Part shown: one piece after another, positions 1-11,453 of the stretch
Layout of the letters: each line of letters opens with the position of its first letter
Position numbering within the stretch: position 1 is the first letter of the stretch
Origin: Chthoniobacterales bacterium
GTDB lineage: Bacteria > Verrucomicrobiota > Verrucomicrobiia > Chthoniobacterales > UBA10450
Assembly (NCBI GenBank): GCA_013820755.1
Contig: JACDHZ010000011.1
Span: 1 to 32,671 of the forward strand
Length of the DNA stretch: 32,671 nt
Reading direction: 5' to 3'
Translations under genes and position numbers: made by a program
Notes under the pieces: model-generated
What the model saw: only the letters and a program-made list of their open reading frames with translations
Told to the model about the DNA's origin: nothing
Databases searched by the model: none

Positions 1-899
1 GAGTAGAGCGGCTTCAGCACGAACTGCTCGAGCGATTCGCCGGCCGGAAATTCATCGGCGAAAAACGCGCGCGAGGTGTGCTCAGTTTTCAGGAACGGCA
101 GCGAATGTTTGCTGATGCGGAAATACCAGTTCGGGTGCCCGATCCATTTCGCGTCGATCTCGTGCTGAAAACCGAAGCCGAAGCTCAGGTCCGGCCGGCG
201 CAGCAGTTCATCGAAGATCACTCGATTGTAAATGCGCTCGATCCGCACTTCCCGGCCGTCTCGTCGATAGAACAGTTCATTCCCGCGGCGAGTGACCTCG
301 GTAAGGGAGACCGGCGCCACACCCAGCAGCGTATCCGTACAGGCGAAGTCGATGCGTGTATTTTGCTTCTCCGGCTCGATCTCGAGCAGCACCACCGTTT
401 CCGGGTCAGCATCGCCGACGATGACTTTGCGCAGCATCTCGACATAGGAGTGCTCGTCGAGGCCATGGAAAAACGGCTGCCAGCCCGCCGGAATCGCGGG
501 GAAGGCGTGCCGCATCGAGTGCAGCAGGAGAATTTGAAACGCGTAGAGACTTGGAAATCCCTGCAACTCGATCAGACGCGGCACCAGTCGGCCGTGGTGC
601 TCGCAGATCGCAAAGTCGACCTGCAGGAATGTCGGATGCGGCGTCTCCCGAGGGACTTCGAGGCCCGGCGGGATGGCCGCTTTTGCATGCTCCGCAAATT
701 CCGCGGTGCGCACCTGCGCGACGATCGCTTCCGCGGCTTGCGTCACTTCAGTTGTGAATGCTGGCGTTAAAAAAAGTGGTGTCTCAGAGATCCTGAAGTC
801 GACCGGCCAGCGTTCCGTTTCGTTTGCCACGCGGAGCATTTCTGCGTAGCGGTCGTCGCTGAATGCGGCGTTGAAACGGCTTCGGAACTCTGGGTCCAT
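1..899 (-). CDS. Conserved hypothetical protein, C-terminus truncated by window edge (possibly ATP-grasp-like)
   Basis: Reverse-strand frame stays open from ATG at 899 to the window edge: MDPEFRSRFNAAFSDDRYAEMLRVANETERWPVDFRISETPLFLTPAF...GLEVPRETPHPTFLQVDFAICEHHGRLVPRLIELQGFPSLYAFQ...FFHGLDEHSYVEMLRKVIVGDADPETVVLLEIEPEKQNTRIDF...; missed by the ORF track because no stop lies in the window. The plus-strand 78-770 ORF is its shadow. Confidence 0.75.
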   Translation of the reverse strand, partial: MDPEFRSRFNAAFSDDRYAEMLRVANETERWPVDFRISETPLFLTPAFTTEVTQAAEAIVAQVRTAEFAEHAKAAIPPGLEVPRETPHPTFLQVDFAICEHHGRLVPRLIELQGFPSLYAFQILLLHSMRHAFPAIPAGWQPFFHGLDEHSYVEMLRKVIVGDADPETVVLLEIEPEKQNTRIDFACTDTLLGVAPVSLTEVTRRGNELFYRRDGREVRIERIYNRVIFDELLRRPDLSFGFGFQHEIDAKWIGHPNWYFRISKHSLPFLKTEHTSRAFFADEFPAGESLEQFVLKPLY

Positions 900-978: not shown

Positions 979-3900
979 CTATCGGTGCAGCAGGCGCAAG
1001 TTCGCTGGCAACATCTGGCGAGCCGATGCGGAGTCGCGGCCTGAACCGAGCTCTGGCTCCTGCGCCGCAACCTTCGTTGGCGCCGGCTCGATCGGCGGTT
1101 GACCCGCGGCTTTCAGCTTTTCGTTCAACGCCGGCAGATCGGTCGCGATCAACTGCGCGAACTCCTTCGTCACGTCGTCGAGCTCACGCCGCAGCGCATC
1201 GATGTTCGCGATCTGGTAATCGCCCGGCTTGCCTTCGAAGCTCAGGATTGCGCCGTACAGCTGATCCGTATGCTCGCGCAAACGTTCTTCGCCCGTGATC
1301 GCGCCGCCCTCAGTCGTGGCGACGACTTGCTTGCGCACCTGGTCGAGCTTCTCGTCGAAATCGGCGACCGCTTTGCGCGTCTCGTCGCCTTCCGGCAGCG
1401 TCTTCATCAACTGCGCGGTCGCACCGCGCAGCGGCATGATCCGATCCATCAACGCGCTCTCTTCGCCGAAGAGCGCATGCACGCGCATCGCCGCATCAAA
1501 TTGCGCTTTGCGGTCGGCCTCGCTGAACTTGGCACGATTGTCGAGGCCGACGGTCAGCTTGGTTTCGGAGACTTTGCCGGCCTTCGTCATGCGAATCGTG
1601 TAGACGCCCGGTAGGACGCGCGGCCCACTGGTTCCGGCAAACGCCAACTGCGCCGCCGGCGGAACCCGCGGCGGTTTCGTGCGCATGCTCCAGGTCACCC
1701 GATTCAAGCCCGGCCGCTTACTGGCGGGCAGTTCGTCGATCACTTTACCCGACGCATCGAGCACCTCGATCTTCAATTTGCCAAACAAATGCCGCGACCG
1801 CTGGTAGTAGGTGATGACCGCGCCATCCGGCGGATTTGGACCTTCAAATGTCGCCGCGCCGCTCGCCCAGCCGCCGTTCCCCTGGATGCGCTGCTGGACC
1901 GGGCGTAACGGCACGAACGCCGCTTCCTGGGTCAGCAGGTCAGGCGTGAGCGCGCGCAGCGGCGTGATGTCATCGATAATCCAGATGCCGCGGCCATGTG
2001 TGGCGAGCACCAGATCGTTCTCCCGCGGCTGAATCGCGATGTCGCGAACCGCAACACCGACAGGGAACCGGCCGCCTTTGAACTGCGCCCACTGCTTGCC
2101 GCCATCGACTGAAACGTAAAGCCCGAACTCCGTCCCGAGAAACAGCAGGTTCGGCTGCACGAGATCTTCCTTGATCACGTGCGCGTAACCGCTCACTCCG
2201 CTCAACTCCTGCGGCGTCACAAGCGGCGTCCACGTCTTGCCGAAGTCGGTTGTTTTGTACAAATACGCCGTCATGTCGCCGAAGGTGTGGCGATCGAACG
2301 TCACGTATGCCGTGCCCGGCGCGAAGTTGCTGGCCTGCACCCAGCTGACCCAGGAATTTGGCGGCAGGTTCGGGACCGCGGCGACGGTGTTCGTCCACGT
2401 CTTCCCGCCGTCGCGCGTGACCTGCACGTTGCCGTCATCCGTTCCGACCCAGATGACGTTTTTGTCCTTCGGTGATTCACTGATCGAATAGATCGTCGTG
2501 TACATTTCGGCTGCGGAGTTATCGATCGTCACGCCGCCCGATTGTTCCTGTTTCTGTTTTTCCGGATCGTTCGTCGTCAGGTCGGGCGAGATGCGGTCCC
2601 AGGTTTGTCCCTGGTTTTTCGAGCGAAAAAGGAACTGCGCGCCGATGTAGATCGTGCCCTTTTCATTCGGCGAAAGCGCGATCGGAGTGTTCCAATTCCA
2701 GCGCAGCTTCTCCTTGTAGTTAGGCTTCGGTTGAATGTCGCGGCCCTGGTGCGTCTTGCGATTGACGCGGCCGATGTTTCCGCCCTGTGATTCTGCATAC
2801 AGGTAATCGGGATCGCTCGGATCAGGGAACATCCAGAAACCGTCGCCGCCAAACATGTTTTCCCACTGCGCATTAGTGATCCCGCCGGGATATTGCGACT
2901 CGCCGACCCACGAGCTGTTGTCCTGTAAGCCGCCGTAGACGCGATAAGGATCAGCGTCGTCTACGCTCACATGATAGAATTGCGAAATCGGAAGGTTCTC
3001 GCCTTTCCACCATTTTGCACCGCCGTCGTGTGAGTACCAGATTCCGCCGTCATCGGCGCTGATCACGACCTGCGTGTTTGTCGGATCAATCCAGACGTCG
3101 TGGACGTCGCCATGCGCGCCGTTGAACCCGCCGACCGTGGCGAAACTCTTGCCGGCGTCTTCACTCATGATGAGCGCGCCGTCGGTTTTGAAAACGCGAT
3201 CCGGATTTTTCGGATCGACGATCAGGTTCGCGAAGTAGAATGGACGCCAGACCATCCACTGGCTCTTGTCGCGCTTGTCCCAGGTCGCACCGCCGTCATC
3301 GGAAACGAAAAGCGCGCTGTCGGTTGATTCGACAAAGCAGTAGACGCGCTGCGGATTCGATGGAGCGATCGCCGTCGCCAGCCGGCCGTAAGGCTCCTTC
3401 GGAAAACCTTTGCTGTTCTCCGGCGTGACTTCCGTCCATGTTGCACCGCCATCGGTGGAACGGAAAAGACCGCTGCCCGAAGGTGCGTTCGGACCGTCGC
3501 CGCCGGAACGAAAGGTCCAGCCTTTCCGCCGGTAATCCCACATCGACGCGAACATTGCGTTCGGATTGTTCGGATCGAGATCGAGGTCGGAGCAGCCGGT
3601 CGACAGATTGGCGCCTTTCAGGATCAGATTCCACGTGCGACCGCCATCGGTCGTCTTGTAGAGCCCACGATCCGGTGAATCGCTCCACATCGGGCCGGGA
3701 ACCGCTGCATACGCGGTCTCGCTGTTCTCCGGACTAACGACAATCTTCGCGATGCGTTCCGATGCCGGCAGACCGACGCGCGTCCAGGTCTCGCCGCCAT
3801 CGGTGGAACGGTACACGCCGTTGCCGATCGAGATGGTGTTACGCGTCCACGATTCGCCGGTGCCGACCCAGACGTTCTTCGAGTTCCTGGGGTCGAGCGC

Positions 3901-4188
3901 GATCGCGCCGATCGATTGCACCGGCTGCTCGTCGAAGACCGGCTTGAAGGTGGTGCCGTTGTCCTCGGATTTCCAGACGCCGCCGCTCGCCGCCCCGACG
4001 AAGATCGTGATCTTGCCGGAAGGTTCGCGGTTCGCGGCGATCGCGGCGATGCGGCCGCTCATCGTGGCAGAGCCAATGTTGCGGGCGCCGAGACCGGAAA
4101 TCGTCGCGGAGCTGTAGGGCGCCTGTTCGGCTGCCTGCGTGAAGTTCGCGAGCGCGAGCGTTGCCAGGGTAAAAGGAAGAATGCGCAT
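979..4188 (-). CDS. Secreted BNR/Asp-box repeat (sortilin/VPS10-like beta-propeller) protein
   Basis: Signal peptide MRILPFTLATLALANFTQAAEQ; around 11 Asp-box-like repeats (STDGGETWTRV, TTDGGRTWNLI, STDGGATWTEV, SDDGGATWDKR, SHDGGAKWWKG, TRDGGKTWTN, SVDGGKQWAQF etc.); charged, probably helical C-terminal region. Confidence 0.9.
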   Translation of the reverse strand: MRILPFTLATLALANFTQAAEQAPYSSATISGLGARNIGSATMSGRIAAIAANREPSGKITIFVGAASGGVWKSEDNGTTFKPVFDEQPVQSIGAIALDPRNSKNVWVGTGESWTRNTISIGNGVYRSTDGGETWTRVGLPASERIAKIVVSPENSETAYAAVPGPMWSDSPDRGLYKTTDGGRTWNLILKGANLSTGCSDLDLDPNNPNAMFASMWDYRRKGWTFRSGGDGPNAPSGSGLFRSTDGGATWTEVTPENSKGFPKEPYGRLATAIAPSNPQRVYCFVESTDSALFVSDDGGATWDKRDKSQWMVWRPFYFANLIVDPKNPDRVFKTDGALIMSEDAGKSFATVGGFNGAHGDVHDVWIDPTNTQVVISADDGGIWYSHDGGAKWWKGENLPISQFYHVSVDDADPYRVYGGLQDNSSWVGESQYPGGITNAQWENMFGGDGFWMFPDPSDPDYLYAESQGGNIGRVNRKTHQGRDIQPKPNYKEKLRWNWNTPIALSPNEKGTIYIGAQFLFRSKNQGQTWDRISPDLTTNDPEKQKQEQSGGVTIDNSAAEMYTTIYSISESPKDKNVIWVGTDDGNVQVTRDGGKTWTNTVAAVPNLPPNSWVSWVQASNFAPGTAYVTFDRHTFGDMTAYLYKTTDFGKTWTPLVTPQELSGVSGYAHVIKEDLVQPNLLFLGTEFGLYVSVDGGKQWAQFKGGRFPVGVAVRDIAIQPRENDLVLATHGRGIWIIDDITPLRALTPDLLTQEAAFVPLRPVQQRIQGNGGWASGAATFEGPNPPDGAVITYYQRSRHLFGKLKIEVLDASGKVIDELPASKRPGLNRVTWSMRTKPPRVPPAAQLAFAGTSGPRVLPGVYTIRMTKAGKVSETKLTVGLDNRAKFSEADRKAQFDAAMRVHALFGEESALMDRIMPLRGATAQLMKTLPEGDETRKAVADFDEKLDQVRKQVVATTEGGAITGEERLREHTDQLYGAILSFEGKPGDYQIANIDALRRELDDVTKEFAQLIATDLPALNEKLKAAGQPPIEPAPTKVAAQEPELGSGRDSASARQMLPANLRLLHR

Positions 4189-6875: not shown

Positions 6876-7838
6876 CTAGCCCATCACGTGCAGGCGCCGC
6901 TTCGTCGCTGCGGCTTGCACGAACTTACCCCACGTGAGGTTGTCCTGGCCGGGTAAGTGTTCCCGCACCTTGCGGATCGCCATATCTGAGACTGCGTCGA
7001 CTACCCAGTCGAAGTTCGCCTGGCCGACACTCGTGATCTCGGCGTCCGGCGCGGGGTTGCAAAAATCGATCGCGAGCGGCACGCCGTCGCGGATCGCGAA
7101 CTCGACCGTATTCAGATCATAGCCGAGGTATTCGTTCAGTTTCTGCACACCCCAGCGCACCTGTTCGAGGATGTCCTGCGGCGCCTGCCAGTCAGTCTGA
7201 TAGCGCAAGTGATACGGGTGACGCGGCTCGTAATTCATGACCTTCACGTGCCGCTGATCAATCGAATAGCAGCGGAAGTACATATCGAATACGACCTCTT
7301 CCTGCAGCATCATGACCAGTTGTCCGGTTTCGCTGTACGCGCGGAAAAATTCCTCCGGGTTGTGCAGCTTGTAGACGTTTTTCCAGCCGCCACCGGCGAA
7401 CGGTTTGAAGTAAGCAGGCCAGCCGACGTAGGCGAAGATCGCCTCCCAATCCATCGGATACGCGAGGTTGCGGAATGAGAGATCGCTCGTGTCGGGCGGC
7501 ACTTGGTGCGACGGCAGCAGCACCGTCCGCGGAACAGCGACGCCGATCTTTGTCGCGAGCGCGTTATTGAAAAACTTCTCGTCCGCGCTCCACCAGAACG
7601 GGTTGTTAATGACGGCGGTCCCAGTGAGTGCCGCATTTTTGAGGAACCCACGGTAAAACGGCACGTCCTGCGAGATCCGGTCAACGATCACCTCGTAGCC
7701 GCACGGCTCCCCTTGGACGACCTTGTCAATTCGCACGAACTCTGCCTGCATCTTGCCGTGTGCTTTCTGGTTTACACGTTCCACGAAGGCAGGCGGAAAG
7801 CTGTTTTCCTGGCCAAAGAGGATTCCGATTTTTTTCAT
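6876..7838 (-). CDS. ATP-grasp domain protein (RimK-like/unknown amide or ester ligase)
   Basis: 'VGWPAYFKPFAGGGWKNVYKLHNPEEFFRAYSETGQLVMMLQEEVVFDMYFRCYSI...LGYDLNTVEFAIRDGVPLAIDFCNPAPD' matches ATP-grasp organisation (substrate/ATP lid lysine, acidic metal-binding E and N). Confidence 0.75.
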   Translation of the reverse strand: MKKIGILFGQENSFPPAFVERVNQKAHGKMQAEFVRIDKVVQGEPCGYEVIVDRISQDVPFYRGFLKNAALTGTAVINNPFWWSADEKFFNNALATKIGVAVPRTVLLPSHQVPPDTSDLSFRNLAYPMDWEAIFAYVGWPAYFKPFAGGGWKNVYKLHNPEEFFRAYSETGQLVMMLQEEVVFDMYFRCYSIDQRHVKVMNYEPRHPYHLRYQTDWQAPQDILEQVRWGVQKLNEYLGYDLNTVEFAIRDGVPLAIDFCNPAPDAEITSVGQANFDWVVDAVSDMAIRKVREHLPGQDNLTWGKFVQAAATKRRLHVMG

Positions 7839-7839
7839 A

Positions 7840-7875
7840 AGAGGAATCGCAGACTACGCAGATTTTTCGGATTCA
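7840..7875. repeat. Possible dispersed intergenic repeat copy (AATCGCAGACTACGCAGATTTTTCGGATT)
   Basis: Internal short direct repeat CGCAGA-CTA-CGCAGA-TTTTT in the gap between two genes; resembles 'cgcagattacgcagatt' interspersed repeats. Confidence 0.35.
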
Positions 7876-7912
7876 AAAGCCTTGGCGGACCAGATGCCGC
7901 TCGCGGGCTTGC

Positions 7913-8623
7913 TTACATCGCGGCGAGGTAATGCGGCAGCATGTCGCGCCAGTAGTTCCAGTCGTGCCCGCACCACTTGCGGTCATCCAGCCAGTGCGGG
8001 ATGCCCTTGGCATCCAGGATGCCGGAGAGCCGCAGGCTTTCGTGCCGGGTGTTATCCCATTCCCCCGTGCCGAGAATGATGCTCATGTGGTTGAAGCGCC
8101 ATGTGTCCGGCATGTTCGGCAGGTAGTCATACGGACTGTTGAAGTAGACATTGTCGTCGTAGTAGCCGCCGAAAAAATCGCTGATGTCAAACGCGCCGCT
8201 CAGGCTGACCAGGTGGCTGATGAGATCCGGATGCCGGAACGCGATGTTTGCCGCGTGATATGCGCCGAGGCTGGCGCCGCAGACCGCAACTCGATGCGCG
8301 GAGCATTCGCACCGTGCTTGATCGAACACATCGTGAATGATGACGTTCTCGAAGGCGACGTGCGTCTTGATGCGGTCGGCGGGATGAATCGCTTTGTTAT
8401 AGAAGCTGTCGAGGTCGATCGCGTCCGGACAATAGATCGTCACCTTGCCGCTATCGATGTGCGGCGCGCACGCATCGATCAGGTGGAAATCCTTGTTCTG
8501 GTAGAAACGCCCGAACGAAGTGGGAAAAAGTACAAGTGGAACGCCATGGCCATCGCCGAAAACGAGCATTTCGAATTCACGACGTAAATGCGGCGTCCAC
8601 CAGCGGATGTAACGTTCGTTCAT
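7913..8623 (-). CDS. Esterase (PF00756-type alpha/beta hydrolase)
   Basis: Start taken at MNERYIRWWTPHLRREFEML; nucleophile elbow CGASLGAYHAA, C-terminal CGHDWNYWRDMLPHYL histidine. The longer ORF to 8938 is an unsupported N-terminal extension overlapping the divergent gene. Confidence 0.85.
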   Translation of the reverse strand: MNERYIRWWTPHLRREFEMLVFGDGHGVPLVLFPTSFGRFYQNKDFHLIDACAPHIDSGKVTIYCPDAIDLDSFYNKAIHPADRIKTHVAFENVIIHDVFDQARCECSAHRVAVCGASLGAYHAANIAFRHPDLISHLVSLSGAFDISDFFGGYYDDNVYFNSPYDYLPNMPDTWRFNHMSIILGTGEWDNTRHESLRLSGILDAKGIPHWLDDRKWCGHDWNYWRDMLPHYLAAM

Positions 8624-8763
8624 TGGAGCTTTCTTTTCGAGCAGGGCCAAAGGCGAGTCGAGAAATCTTTCGCGTTGTATCTTTTGGCGCGAACGGCGAT
8701 CGAATTGCGGAGCATCCACGGCGCGTCGACAAGCCGTATCTCCTCCACGATAACTGGTGCGCA

Positions 8764-9636
8764 ATGCCCGAACACACACTGACCGGCAACATCCAGAGCC
8801 ATCCGGATTTCGAATCGAAAATCCTACGGAATCGCCGTGATGCGCTCGTTTATCTGCCACCTGGCTATCGTCGGGCGCGCACTCGCCGTTTCCCGGTGCT
8901 GTACTTGCACGACGGGCAGAACGTTTTCGATGCAGCAACCTCTTTCGGCGGTGTTGAATGGAATGCGGATGAGACGGCCCAGCGGCTGTCTCGAGAGAAA
9001 TTAATCGAGCCGGTAATCATCGTGGCGGTGGCGAACACCGGCGAGAACCGGATCCACGAGTACGCGCCAACCCGCGGCCGTGTAGACCCGCAGAAGCGGA
9101 TGCGTAGCAAAGGCCTTCTGAGGAAGTACGGCTGTTTTTTGATTGAGGAGCTGAAACCCTTTATTGACGCGACCTACCGCACGCTGCCGGGCGCTGAGTT
9201 CACTGGCTTAGGCGGTTCATCGTTAGGCGGTTTGGCAACCTTGGGCCTCGGTCTCTGGTTTCCTCATGTGTTCACCAGACTCGCCGTAATGTCGCCATCG
9301 ATCTGGTGGGATGACCGCGTGCTCTACGAAATGGTTCGGGCGATTCCGGAAGAGGCGCGGCCGCCGCTAAAAATCTGGCTCGACACGGGCACATCCGAGG
9401 AAGGATGGGAGCACGCGCGTGGACTTCGCGATTTGTTGGTGGAGAAAGGGTGGCGTTTGTTCGACGACCTGCAATACGTCGAAGACGAGGGCGGCGCTCA
9501 TACAGAGGCTGCGTGGGCCCATCGACTGGATGCGGCACTACGTTTCCTGTACCCGCCTCCTCCGCCGGCAATCACGGCCACGCCGCCGCCGCGACCGGCG
9601 AAGCCGATCATCCTGCGGCGTCCGACCTTCGTGTGA
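8764..9636 (+). CDS. Esterase, enterochelin-esterase/PF00756 type
   Basis: Start at MPEHTLTGNIQSHPDF; 'VYLPPGY...FPVLYLHDGQNVFD', nucleophile GGSSLGGLAT, C-terminal EGGAHTEAAWAHRLDAALRFLY. Confidence 0.88.
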   Translation: MPEHTLTGNIQSHPDFESKILRNRRDALVYLPPGYRRARTRRFPVLYLHDGQNVFDAATSFGGVEWNADETAQRLSREKLIEPVIIVAVANTGENRIHEYAPTRGRVDPQKRMRSKGLLRKYGCFLIEELKPFIDATYRTLPGAEFTGLGGSSLGGLATLGLGLWFPHVFTRLAVMSPSIWWDDRVLYEMVRAIPEEARPPLKIWLDTGTSEEGWEHARGLRDLLVEKGWRLFDDLQYVEDEGGAHTEAAWAHRLDAALRFLYPPPPPAITATPPPRPAKPIILRRPTFV

Positions 9637-10475: not shown

Positions 10476-11453
10476 CTAGACTGCGGCTGCTTCGCCTTCG
10501 GCAAAGTTCCCGAGTCGGCGGAACTTCTGGTAGCGCTTCTCGAGCAACTCATCAGTCGTTAGCCCTTTTACCCGCTCAAGGTTTCGACGCAGAGCGCTGC
10601 CGACATGTGCCGCCGCAAGGTCATGGTCGCGGTGTGCGCCACCTTCCGGTTCAGCGATCACTTCATCCACAACACCAAGACGCATTAGGTCGTCGGCGGT
10701 CAACTTCAACGCCTCGGCAGCTTCAGGCGCATGACGCCGGTCCTTCCATAAAATGGCTGAGCAAGCTTCAGGACTGATCACCGAATAGTAGGCGTTTTCG
10801 AGAATCAACACGCGGTCAGCCACTCCGATCCCGAGTGCGCCACCCGAACCGCCTTCGCCGATTACGACGGCGGTGATTGGCACACGGAGGCTCATCATTT
10901 CGCGCAGGTTCACAGCGATCGCTTCGGCAATGTGGCGCTCCTCCGAACCGATTCCCGGGTACGCTCCCGGGGTGTCGATGAGTGCGATCACCGGGAGGCC
11001 GAACTTCTCCGCGATCCGCATCACGCGCAGCGCCTTCCGATAGCCTTCCGGATACGCGCAGCCAAAATTTCGCCGCACATTCTCCTTCGTATCGCGGCCT
11101 TTCTGTTGCATCACAACCACGCAGCGATGCAGCCCGATTTTTGCGAGTCCACAAGGCATCGCCTTGTCATCGCCGAAGAAGCGATCGCCATGCAGCTCGA
11201 CCCAATCGGTGAAGCAGCGGGAAATGTAATCGAGTGCGAACGGCCGCTGGATGTGACGGGCGATCTGAACCCGCTGCCACGCACTTAAATTATCGTAGAT
11301 GTCGCGGCGCGTGTCGCGGATCTTGGTTTCCATCGATTCGACCTCGGCTTCGAAGTCGATCTCATGCTCATTCGAGTGAGTTTTCAACTCCTGAAGCCGC
11401 CGCTGCAGTTCGAGGATGGGCTTTTCGAAATCGAGCGGCTGAACGTCCATCAC
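10476..11453 (-). CDS. accA: Acetyl-CoA carboxylase carboxyltransferase subunit alpha
   Basis: Strong AccA signatures: DFEKPILELQRRLQEL, ALDYISRCFTDWVELHGDR, GEGGSGGALGIGVADRVLILENAYYSVISPEACSAILWKD. Confidence 0.97.
   Translation of the reverse strand: MMDVQPLDFEKPILELQRRLQELKTHSNEHEIDFEAEVESMETKIRDTRRDIYDNLSAWQRVQIARHIQRPFALDYISRCFTDWVELHGDRFFGDDKAMPCGLAKIGLHRCVVVMQQKGRDTKENVRRNFGCAYPEGYRKALRVMRIAEKFGLPVIALIDTPGAYPGIGSEERHIAEAIAVNLREMMSLRVPITAVVIGEGGSGGALGIGVADRVLILENAYYSVISPEACSAILWKDRRHAPEAAEALKLTADDLMRLGVVDEVIAEPEGGAHRDHDLAAAHVGSALRRNLERVKGLTTDELLEKRYQKFRRLGNFAEGEAAAV

Follow-up and report, generated by a model that had tools for sequence, protein, structure and literature searches.

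The window analysed here is a stretch of 32,671 nucleotides starting at base 1 of contig JACDHZ010000011.1 (C261 in our numbering) from a Chthoniobacterales bacterium (assembly GCA_013820755.1), a draft genome of 3.0 Mb that is 92% complete with 3% contamination. An earlier note on this DNA had pointed to a divergent module of one ATP-grasp ligase (AG) and two esterases (E1 and E2). All three genes were found to be intact and strongly conserved (Table 1), and they are the E2-E1-AG end of a larger, widely conserved amide-ligase module. The other partners are a glutamate-cysteine ligase 2 family protein (GCS2; PF04107), a second ATP-grasp ligase with the fold of glutathione synthetase (GSS), here called AG4, and either a class-I glutamine amidotransferase or an M29-like metallopeptidase (M29).

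Table 1. Features of the module in the window
Feature	Position	Strand	Size	Basis or remark
AG, LysX/ArgX/Ddl-like ATP-grasp ligase	6876-7838	-	320 aa	Alignment A1, AF2 model, Foldseek, co-occurrence
E1, PF00756-type alpha/beta hydrolase	7913-8623	-	236 aa	Pfam, alignment A3
E2, divergent PF00756 esterase, GSSLG	8764-9636	+	290 aa	Pfam, neighbourhoods
E1/E2 divergent intergenic region, presumed shared promoter region	8624-8763		140 bp	Aligned start codons
AG4, N-terminal three quarters of a GSS-fold ATP-grasp ligase	3-899	-		3' end beyond contig

The start of E1 was placed at a conserved ATG (MNERYIRWW, alignment A3) instead of the upstream TTG given in the list of open reading frames (ORFs), and that of E2 at the ATG preceding MPEHTLTG. 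The intergenic region shared by the two esterase genes therefore has the length estimated before. AG and E1 do lie on the same strand, with a gap of 74 bp and not 75 bp as noted earlier. A promoter scan detected no sigma-70 promoters or terminators above chance around the module genes, including the E1/E2 intergenic region, and no obvious signal peptide was seen by eye at the N-termini of the proteins.

Conservation of the module beyond the host genome

AG loci were compared in three phyla (Verrucomicrobiota, Ignavibacteriota, and Bacteroidota; 88 loci). GCS2 was found downstream of AG in 79 of them, a divergent E2 in 65 and E1 in 51, and AG4, the amidotransferase and M29 were present in 35, 27, and 11 loci, respectively. 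M29 and the amidotransferase never occurred in one locus, and their full-length copies (8 and 27) showed zero overlap. The commonest complete order was E2(-) E1 AG GCS2 amidotransferase-or-M29 AG4; in the complete operon of the Chthoniobacterales locus L016 just a few bases separate the genes. The flanking genes differ between phyla, with accA in Chthoniobacterales, mutS in Ignavibacteria and other genes in Bacteroidota, so general synteny fails to explain the grouping. In the window, accA (acetyl-CoA carboxylase alpha; 10476-11453, minus strand) lies just past E2, as it does in the Chthoniobacterales loci L015, L016, L024, and L026. Pairwise distances among the module families were correlated (r 0.86-0.97), which partly reflects shared ancestry.

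Among 286 genomes of the host's class, AG and AG4 were detected in an identical set of 17, and GCS2 matches of over 640 bits coincided with this set; a distant GCS2 alone (300 bits or less) was present in three more genomes. AG and GCS2 were adjacent in 15 of the 17 carriers, and AG and AG4 lay within 7 kb of each other in 16. High-scoring E1 (at least 299 bits) was present in 14 of the AG-bearing genomes and nowhere else in the class, with weaker E1 paralogs scattered. A naive probability of this co-occurrence is 1e-27, a figure that ignores kinship; the carriers span three families, and presence and absence of AG, AG4, and GCS2 agree within one family (f7) too. AG, E1, and E2 thus form a unit, as the earlier note proposed, that is co-conserved far beyond the host genome, contrary to the outcome it had named as speaking against its proposal. 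They do not form the complete module, of which GCS2 and AG4 were shown to be the tightest partners.

Ligases and esterases of the module

AG matched no Pfam family. Its AlphaFold2 (AF2) model (predicted local distance difference test, pLDDT, 89.4) showed an ATP-grasp fold, and a Foldseek search gave ArgX (3vpc) as the top match (E=4e-13), besides LysX, Ddl, PsnB, and RimK. There were 513 PDB matches at E<=0.001, and among the 50 matches listed all were ATP-grasp enzymes or synapsin. AG is alike in fold to the LysX/ArgX/RimK/Ddl ligases but shares only 10-16% identity with them, and no LysW-like carrier was seen. Membership of the RimK family was rejected (10.7 bits compared to a TIGR00768 cut-off of 143.4); of the former designation as a RimK-like ATP-grasp ligase, the fold therefore stands and the family does not. 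Residues K145-P146, the GGGW lid (149-152), Q179-E180, E246, and D258-F-C-N261 were invariant in alignment A1 of 38 relatives. From these we infer that ATP-lid and metal-binding residues are kept, as had been noted (K145, G149-W152, Q179-E180, E246, D258, and N261); the DFCN motif presumably takes the place of the usual ExN metal motif.

Identity of AG across the phyla was 61-89%, far above chance. The closest relatives were from Chthoniobacterales metagenome genomes (87-89% identity), and the AG tree placed the window sequence within a Chthoniobacterales clade with full support. A scan of one public collection gave at least 593 AG relatives. The 80 that were kept belonged to Verrucomicrobiota (Chthoniobacterales, Opitutaceae), Ignavibacteria, and Bacteroidota, with the exception of one record titled Williamsia, the AG of which clusters with Chitinophagia. 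No AG was found on a plasmid. Sequence homology between AG and AG4 was rejected after a negative profile comparison.

AG4 was found in the window by searching the host with the AG4 of L016 (65% identity). The earlier note had listed a further conserved hypothetical at this end of the window; it is real, not as a separate gene but as the AG4 of the module, a protein of about 390 aa when full-length, truncated here where the contig stops. For the L016 ortholog, the model (pLDDT 92.8) matched 8fbz (E=3e-13, TM 0.64 by query length) and resembled human, yeast, and plant GSS, homoglutathione synthetase (hGSS), glutathionylspermidine synthetase (GspS), and YgiC/YjfC, with E-values of about 1e-13 to 1e-10. 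At sequence level, AG4 stayed below the cut-offs of all Pfam and NCBIfam families, those of GSS included. A conserved stretch, LIE(L/M)Q(G/A)FPS, resembles what we take to be the metal-binding ExN segment of the GSS fold, and the glycine-rich loop reads KPL(F/Y)SFAG. In one Opitutaceae-like genome AG4 was matched as two pieces within a single open frame, separated by a stretch without a match (L137 4275-5597; G122 C1:1768280-1769545).

The GCS2 of L016 scored 535.5 bits compared to a cut-off of 371 for the PRK13515 carboxylate-amine ligase, and also passed the TIGR02050 cut-off. The host GCS2 (C203:3822-4928) is 73% identical to it. Most carriers of the host's family contain a second high-scoring GCS2 copy (G013, G167, G254, G343, and G411), in tandem in G254, which suggests two substrates.

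Both esterases were confirmed as PF00756-type enzymes (cut-off 22 bits; E2 99.7 and E1 26.1 bits). The nucleophile serines noted earlier in GASLG of E1 (Ser118, A3 numbering) and GSSLG of E2 held, the latter being conserved in 64 relatives. Of the putative Ser-Asp-His triad of E1, S118 and the C-terminal H220 were at least 90% conserved and D190 was invariant. The earlier note had also suggested a conjugate of siderophore-like or polyol-ester type; on this reading, the esterases would act hydrolytically on an ester conjugate that is exported. The best NCBIfam match of E2 is enterochelin esterase (PRK10439) and its PDB match is an IroE-like hydrolase, but the former reached only 42.8 bits, far under the cut-off of 222. 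No siderophore synthesis, receptor, ABC transporter or other transport gene was found to recur beside the module in the AG neighbourhoods, and the enzymes look cytosolic. We therefore dropped this chemistry as highly improbable.

Relatives of E1 were also found on plasmids (30-38% identity). In plasmids of Peptoclostridium and Pararhizobium such a relative lies directly downstream of a different, unrelated PF13535 ATP-grasp (L120 4788-6753; L122 4828-6756), so pairing of hydrolase and ATP-grasp recurs; other E1 relatives had no ATP-grasp neighbour. In one Chthoniobacterales lineage (L016 6420-7985; L003) E1 and AG are separated by the insertion of a flavin adenine dinucleotide (FAD)-dependent oxidase (FAD_binding_4 + ALO-like), possibly as an extra tailoring step.

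Predicted pathway and its alternatives

From the gene content, folds, conservation, and co-occurrence observed, we predict the steps, substrates, and product of a pathway. On balance we favour the reading that the module encodes a cytosolic pathway, independent of ribosome and nonribosomal peptide synthetase (NRPS), to a short peptide-like metabolite, with ATP driving the formation of one amide bond after another. Enzymes of the GCS2 family, those of the GSS fold, and LysX/Ddl-type ATP-grasps activate a carboxylate by ATP and hand it to an amine, and the simplest role of three such ligases in a module would be to form three amide bonds within a single small molecule, or else alternative ones. 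GCS2 would start by linking a carboxylate, probably that at the gamma position of glutamate, to an amine; AG4 would extend the resulting (pseudo)dipeptide by another amine or amino acid, and AG would form another amide bond. The serine hydrolases E1 and E2 may set free or recycle the molecule in an acyl, ester or thioester form, and M29, or the amidotransferase that replaces it in other lineages, may trim or recycle the peptide. Their mutual exclusion is as expected of interchangeable hydrolytic steps; since some amidotransferase-fold enzymes cleave gamma-glutamyl bonds, it suggests a hydrolytic step on the peptide. Glutathione synthesis follows the same logic, a GCS2 and then a ligase of the GSS fold, so our first guess at the product is a gamma-glutamyl (pseudo)oligopeptide, plausibly one that is glutathione-like. 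The direction of the earlier proposal, an ATP-dependent ligase and hydrolases that make or remodel a conjugate, thus held within a larger multi-ligase module.

Several points weigh against this reading. Substrates and product are inferred, and GCS2-family enzymes are not all glutamate-specific. E1 is absent from many Chitinophagia loci, AG4 lies near AG in fewer than half of the loci compared (some of which are cut short), and the model does not account for the chemistry of E1 and E2. The AG4 loop presumably lacks the acidic residue of the human GSS loop KPQREGGG, so its catalysis or metal binding may differ. Besides, BshC was detected in 13 of 13 Bacteroidota and Ignavibacteria carriers tested, so the product would not be a general replacement thiol.

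This last point bears on a special case of the peptide pathway, a low-molecular-weight thiol made in hosts without glutathione or bacillithiol. GCS2 would make gamma-Glu-Cys, AG4 would add a third residue and AG a fourth, and the esterases would act like S-formylglutathione hydrolase, a PF00756 enzyme. The pair of GCS2 and GSS fold mirrors GshA and GSS; BshC (PF10079) gave no match in the host genome, and GshB was found neither in the host nor in 19 relatives, with positive controls detected in both searches. The presence of BshC in the Bacteroidota and Ignavibacteria carriers argues against a thiol, the module is missing from most class genomes sampled, and E2 scored only 11.9 bits with the S-formylglutathione hydrolase model (cut-off 281.7). 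Because those carriers have BshC and most class genomes do without the module, a thiol role is possible but not favoured, and we consider such a pathway unlikely. As to function, a so far undescribed glutathione-like gamma-glutamyl peptide of three to four residues, possibly a thiol, may tentatively be imagined to buffer redox state or to serve as a cofactor of detoxification in Verrucomicrobia without glutathione and bacillithiol; in Bacteroidota and Ignavibacteria, where bacillithiol is also made, its role would be a second one. We regard this as doubtful.

An osmolyte pathway, modelled on the synthesis of N-acetylglutaminylglutamine amide, would have the ligases make a small neutral peptide as compatible solute, amidated or recycled by the amidotransferase or peptidase. 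It would agree with several ligases and an amidotransferase or peptidase in one operon, with cytosolic enzymes in soil hosts, and with bacillithiol in Bacteroidota. No acetyltransferase or osmotic regulator recurs, though, such pathways offer nothing for two esterases to do, and the amidotransferase stands alone without a synthetase domain of its own, which makes this alternative improbable too. Somewhat less credit still is given to protein modification, in which the ligases would put amino acids on a protein and the hydrolases take them off. The fold of AG is that of LysX, ArgX, and RimK, some of which act on protein C-termini, and peptidases alternate in the operon; against this, small molecules are the usual substrates of GCS2 and GSS-fold enzymes, the complete L016 operon leaves few bases between genes, and the recurrent ORFs of 90 aa or more included no conserved carrier (the search did not extend to carriers under 60 aa elsewhere). 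Likewise, the recurrent genes of this size included no small gene that could encode a graspetide precursor beside AG, shorter ORFs not being clustered, and the L016 genes leave no room for one between them.

The peptide-ligase reading has parallels in known systems. In the NRPS-independent E-64 pathway, the fungal GSS-fold ATP-grasp Cp1B makes a pseudodipeptide, although by sequence it shows no detectable identity to any other ATP-grasp enzyme that has been characterised (PMC12568646). As predicted for the module, E-64 (Cp1B/Cp1D) and dapdiamide (DdaF/DdaG) synthesis use stand-alone, stepwise amide-forming ligases (Cp1B: PMC12568646), in their case an ATP-grasp and an adenylating amide synthetase instead of GCS2 and two ATP-grasps with esterases. 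Glutathione and homoglutathione synthesis (GshA or GCL with GSS) shares the GCS2 family and the GSS/hGSS fold with the module, whereas AG4 lacks a sequence family match, a third ligase, two esterases, and a peptidase or amidotransferase are added, and the host lacks GshB. YgiC/YjfC and GspS share the fold of AG4 with a weak profile match (E=0.068), but no polyamine gene recurs in the module operon and AG4 stays below any family cut-off. The amidoligase survey of Iyer et al. (2009, Mol Biosyst 5:1636) reportedly predicted pathways with ATP-grasp and glutamine-synthetase-fold ligases and peptidases. As in the earlier note, no named pathway could be assigned: no characterised pathway in the library searched matched the module, and the literature searched yielded no account of the cluster. 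It is apparently an uncharacterised variant of ATP-grasp/GCS2 peptide-ligase pathways.

That three amide ligases and hydrolases are kept together over three phyla points to a likely useful product, and two of the ligases, AG and AG4, match no curated family. A 2018 survey placed Verrucomicrobia among the major lineages without a documented or predicted low-molecular-weight thiol (PMC6282198), and in this respect the module offers a concrete gene set that is testable in culturable Mucilaginibacter, Pedobacter or Opitutaceae relatives.

State of the module in the host genome

The E2|E1-AG-GCS2-M29-AG4 block of relatives has come apart in the host. AG4 lies 6 kb downstream of AG, GCS2 is on contig C203 and M29 on contig C106, so the host retains every partner of the Chthoniobacterales version. 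Several of the nearest relatives contain E2-E1-AG with no adjacent GCS2, and L016, L026, L027, and L029 keep AG-GCS2-M29-AG4 together. The interval between AG and AG4 in the host contains a heavy-metal-binding ORF, a GDSL hydrolase, a LolA-like protein, and a 1069-aa sortilin/BNR-repeat protein.

A further contig of the assembly, C311 (L091 1-3244), carries the C-terminal end of an AG whose DNA is 79% identical to the window gene, next to it ORFs that resemble a nucleotidyltransferase and a homocysteine S-methyltransferase, and then the N-terminal part of a GCS2. This AG fragment and an AG4 fragment on C301 showed 79-80% DNA identity to the window genes; they probably come from a related strain in the bin or are paralogs, and were not counted as parts of the module. 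The sortilin/BNR-repeat protein (979-4188, minus strand) adjoins AG4 in the window, and a BNR-type lookalike, recognised by eye (L139 5275-8001, minus strand), adjoins M29 on C106.
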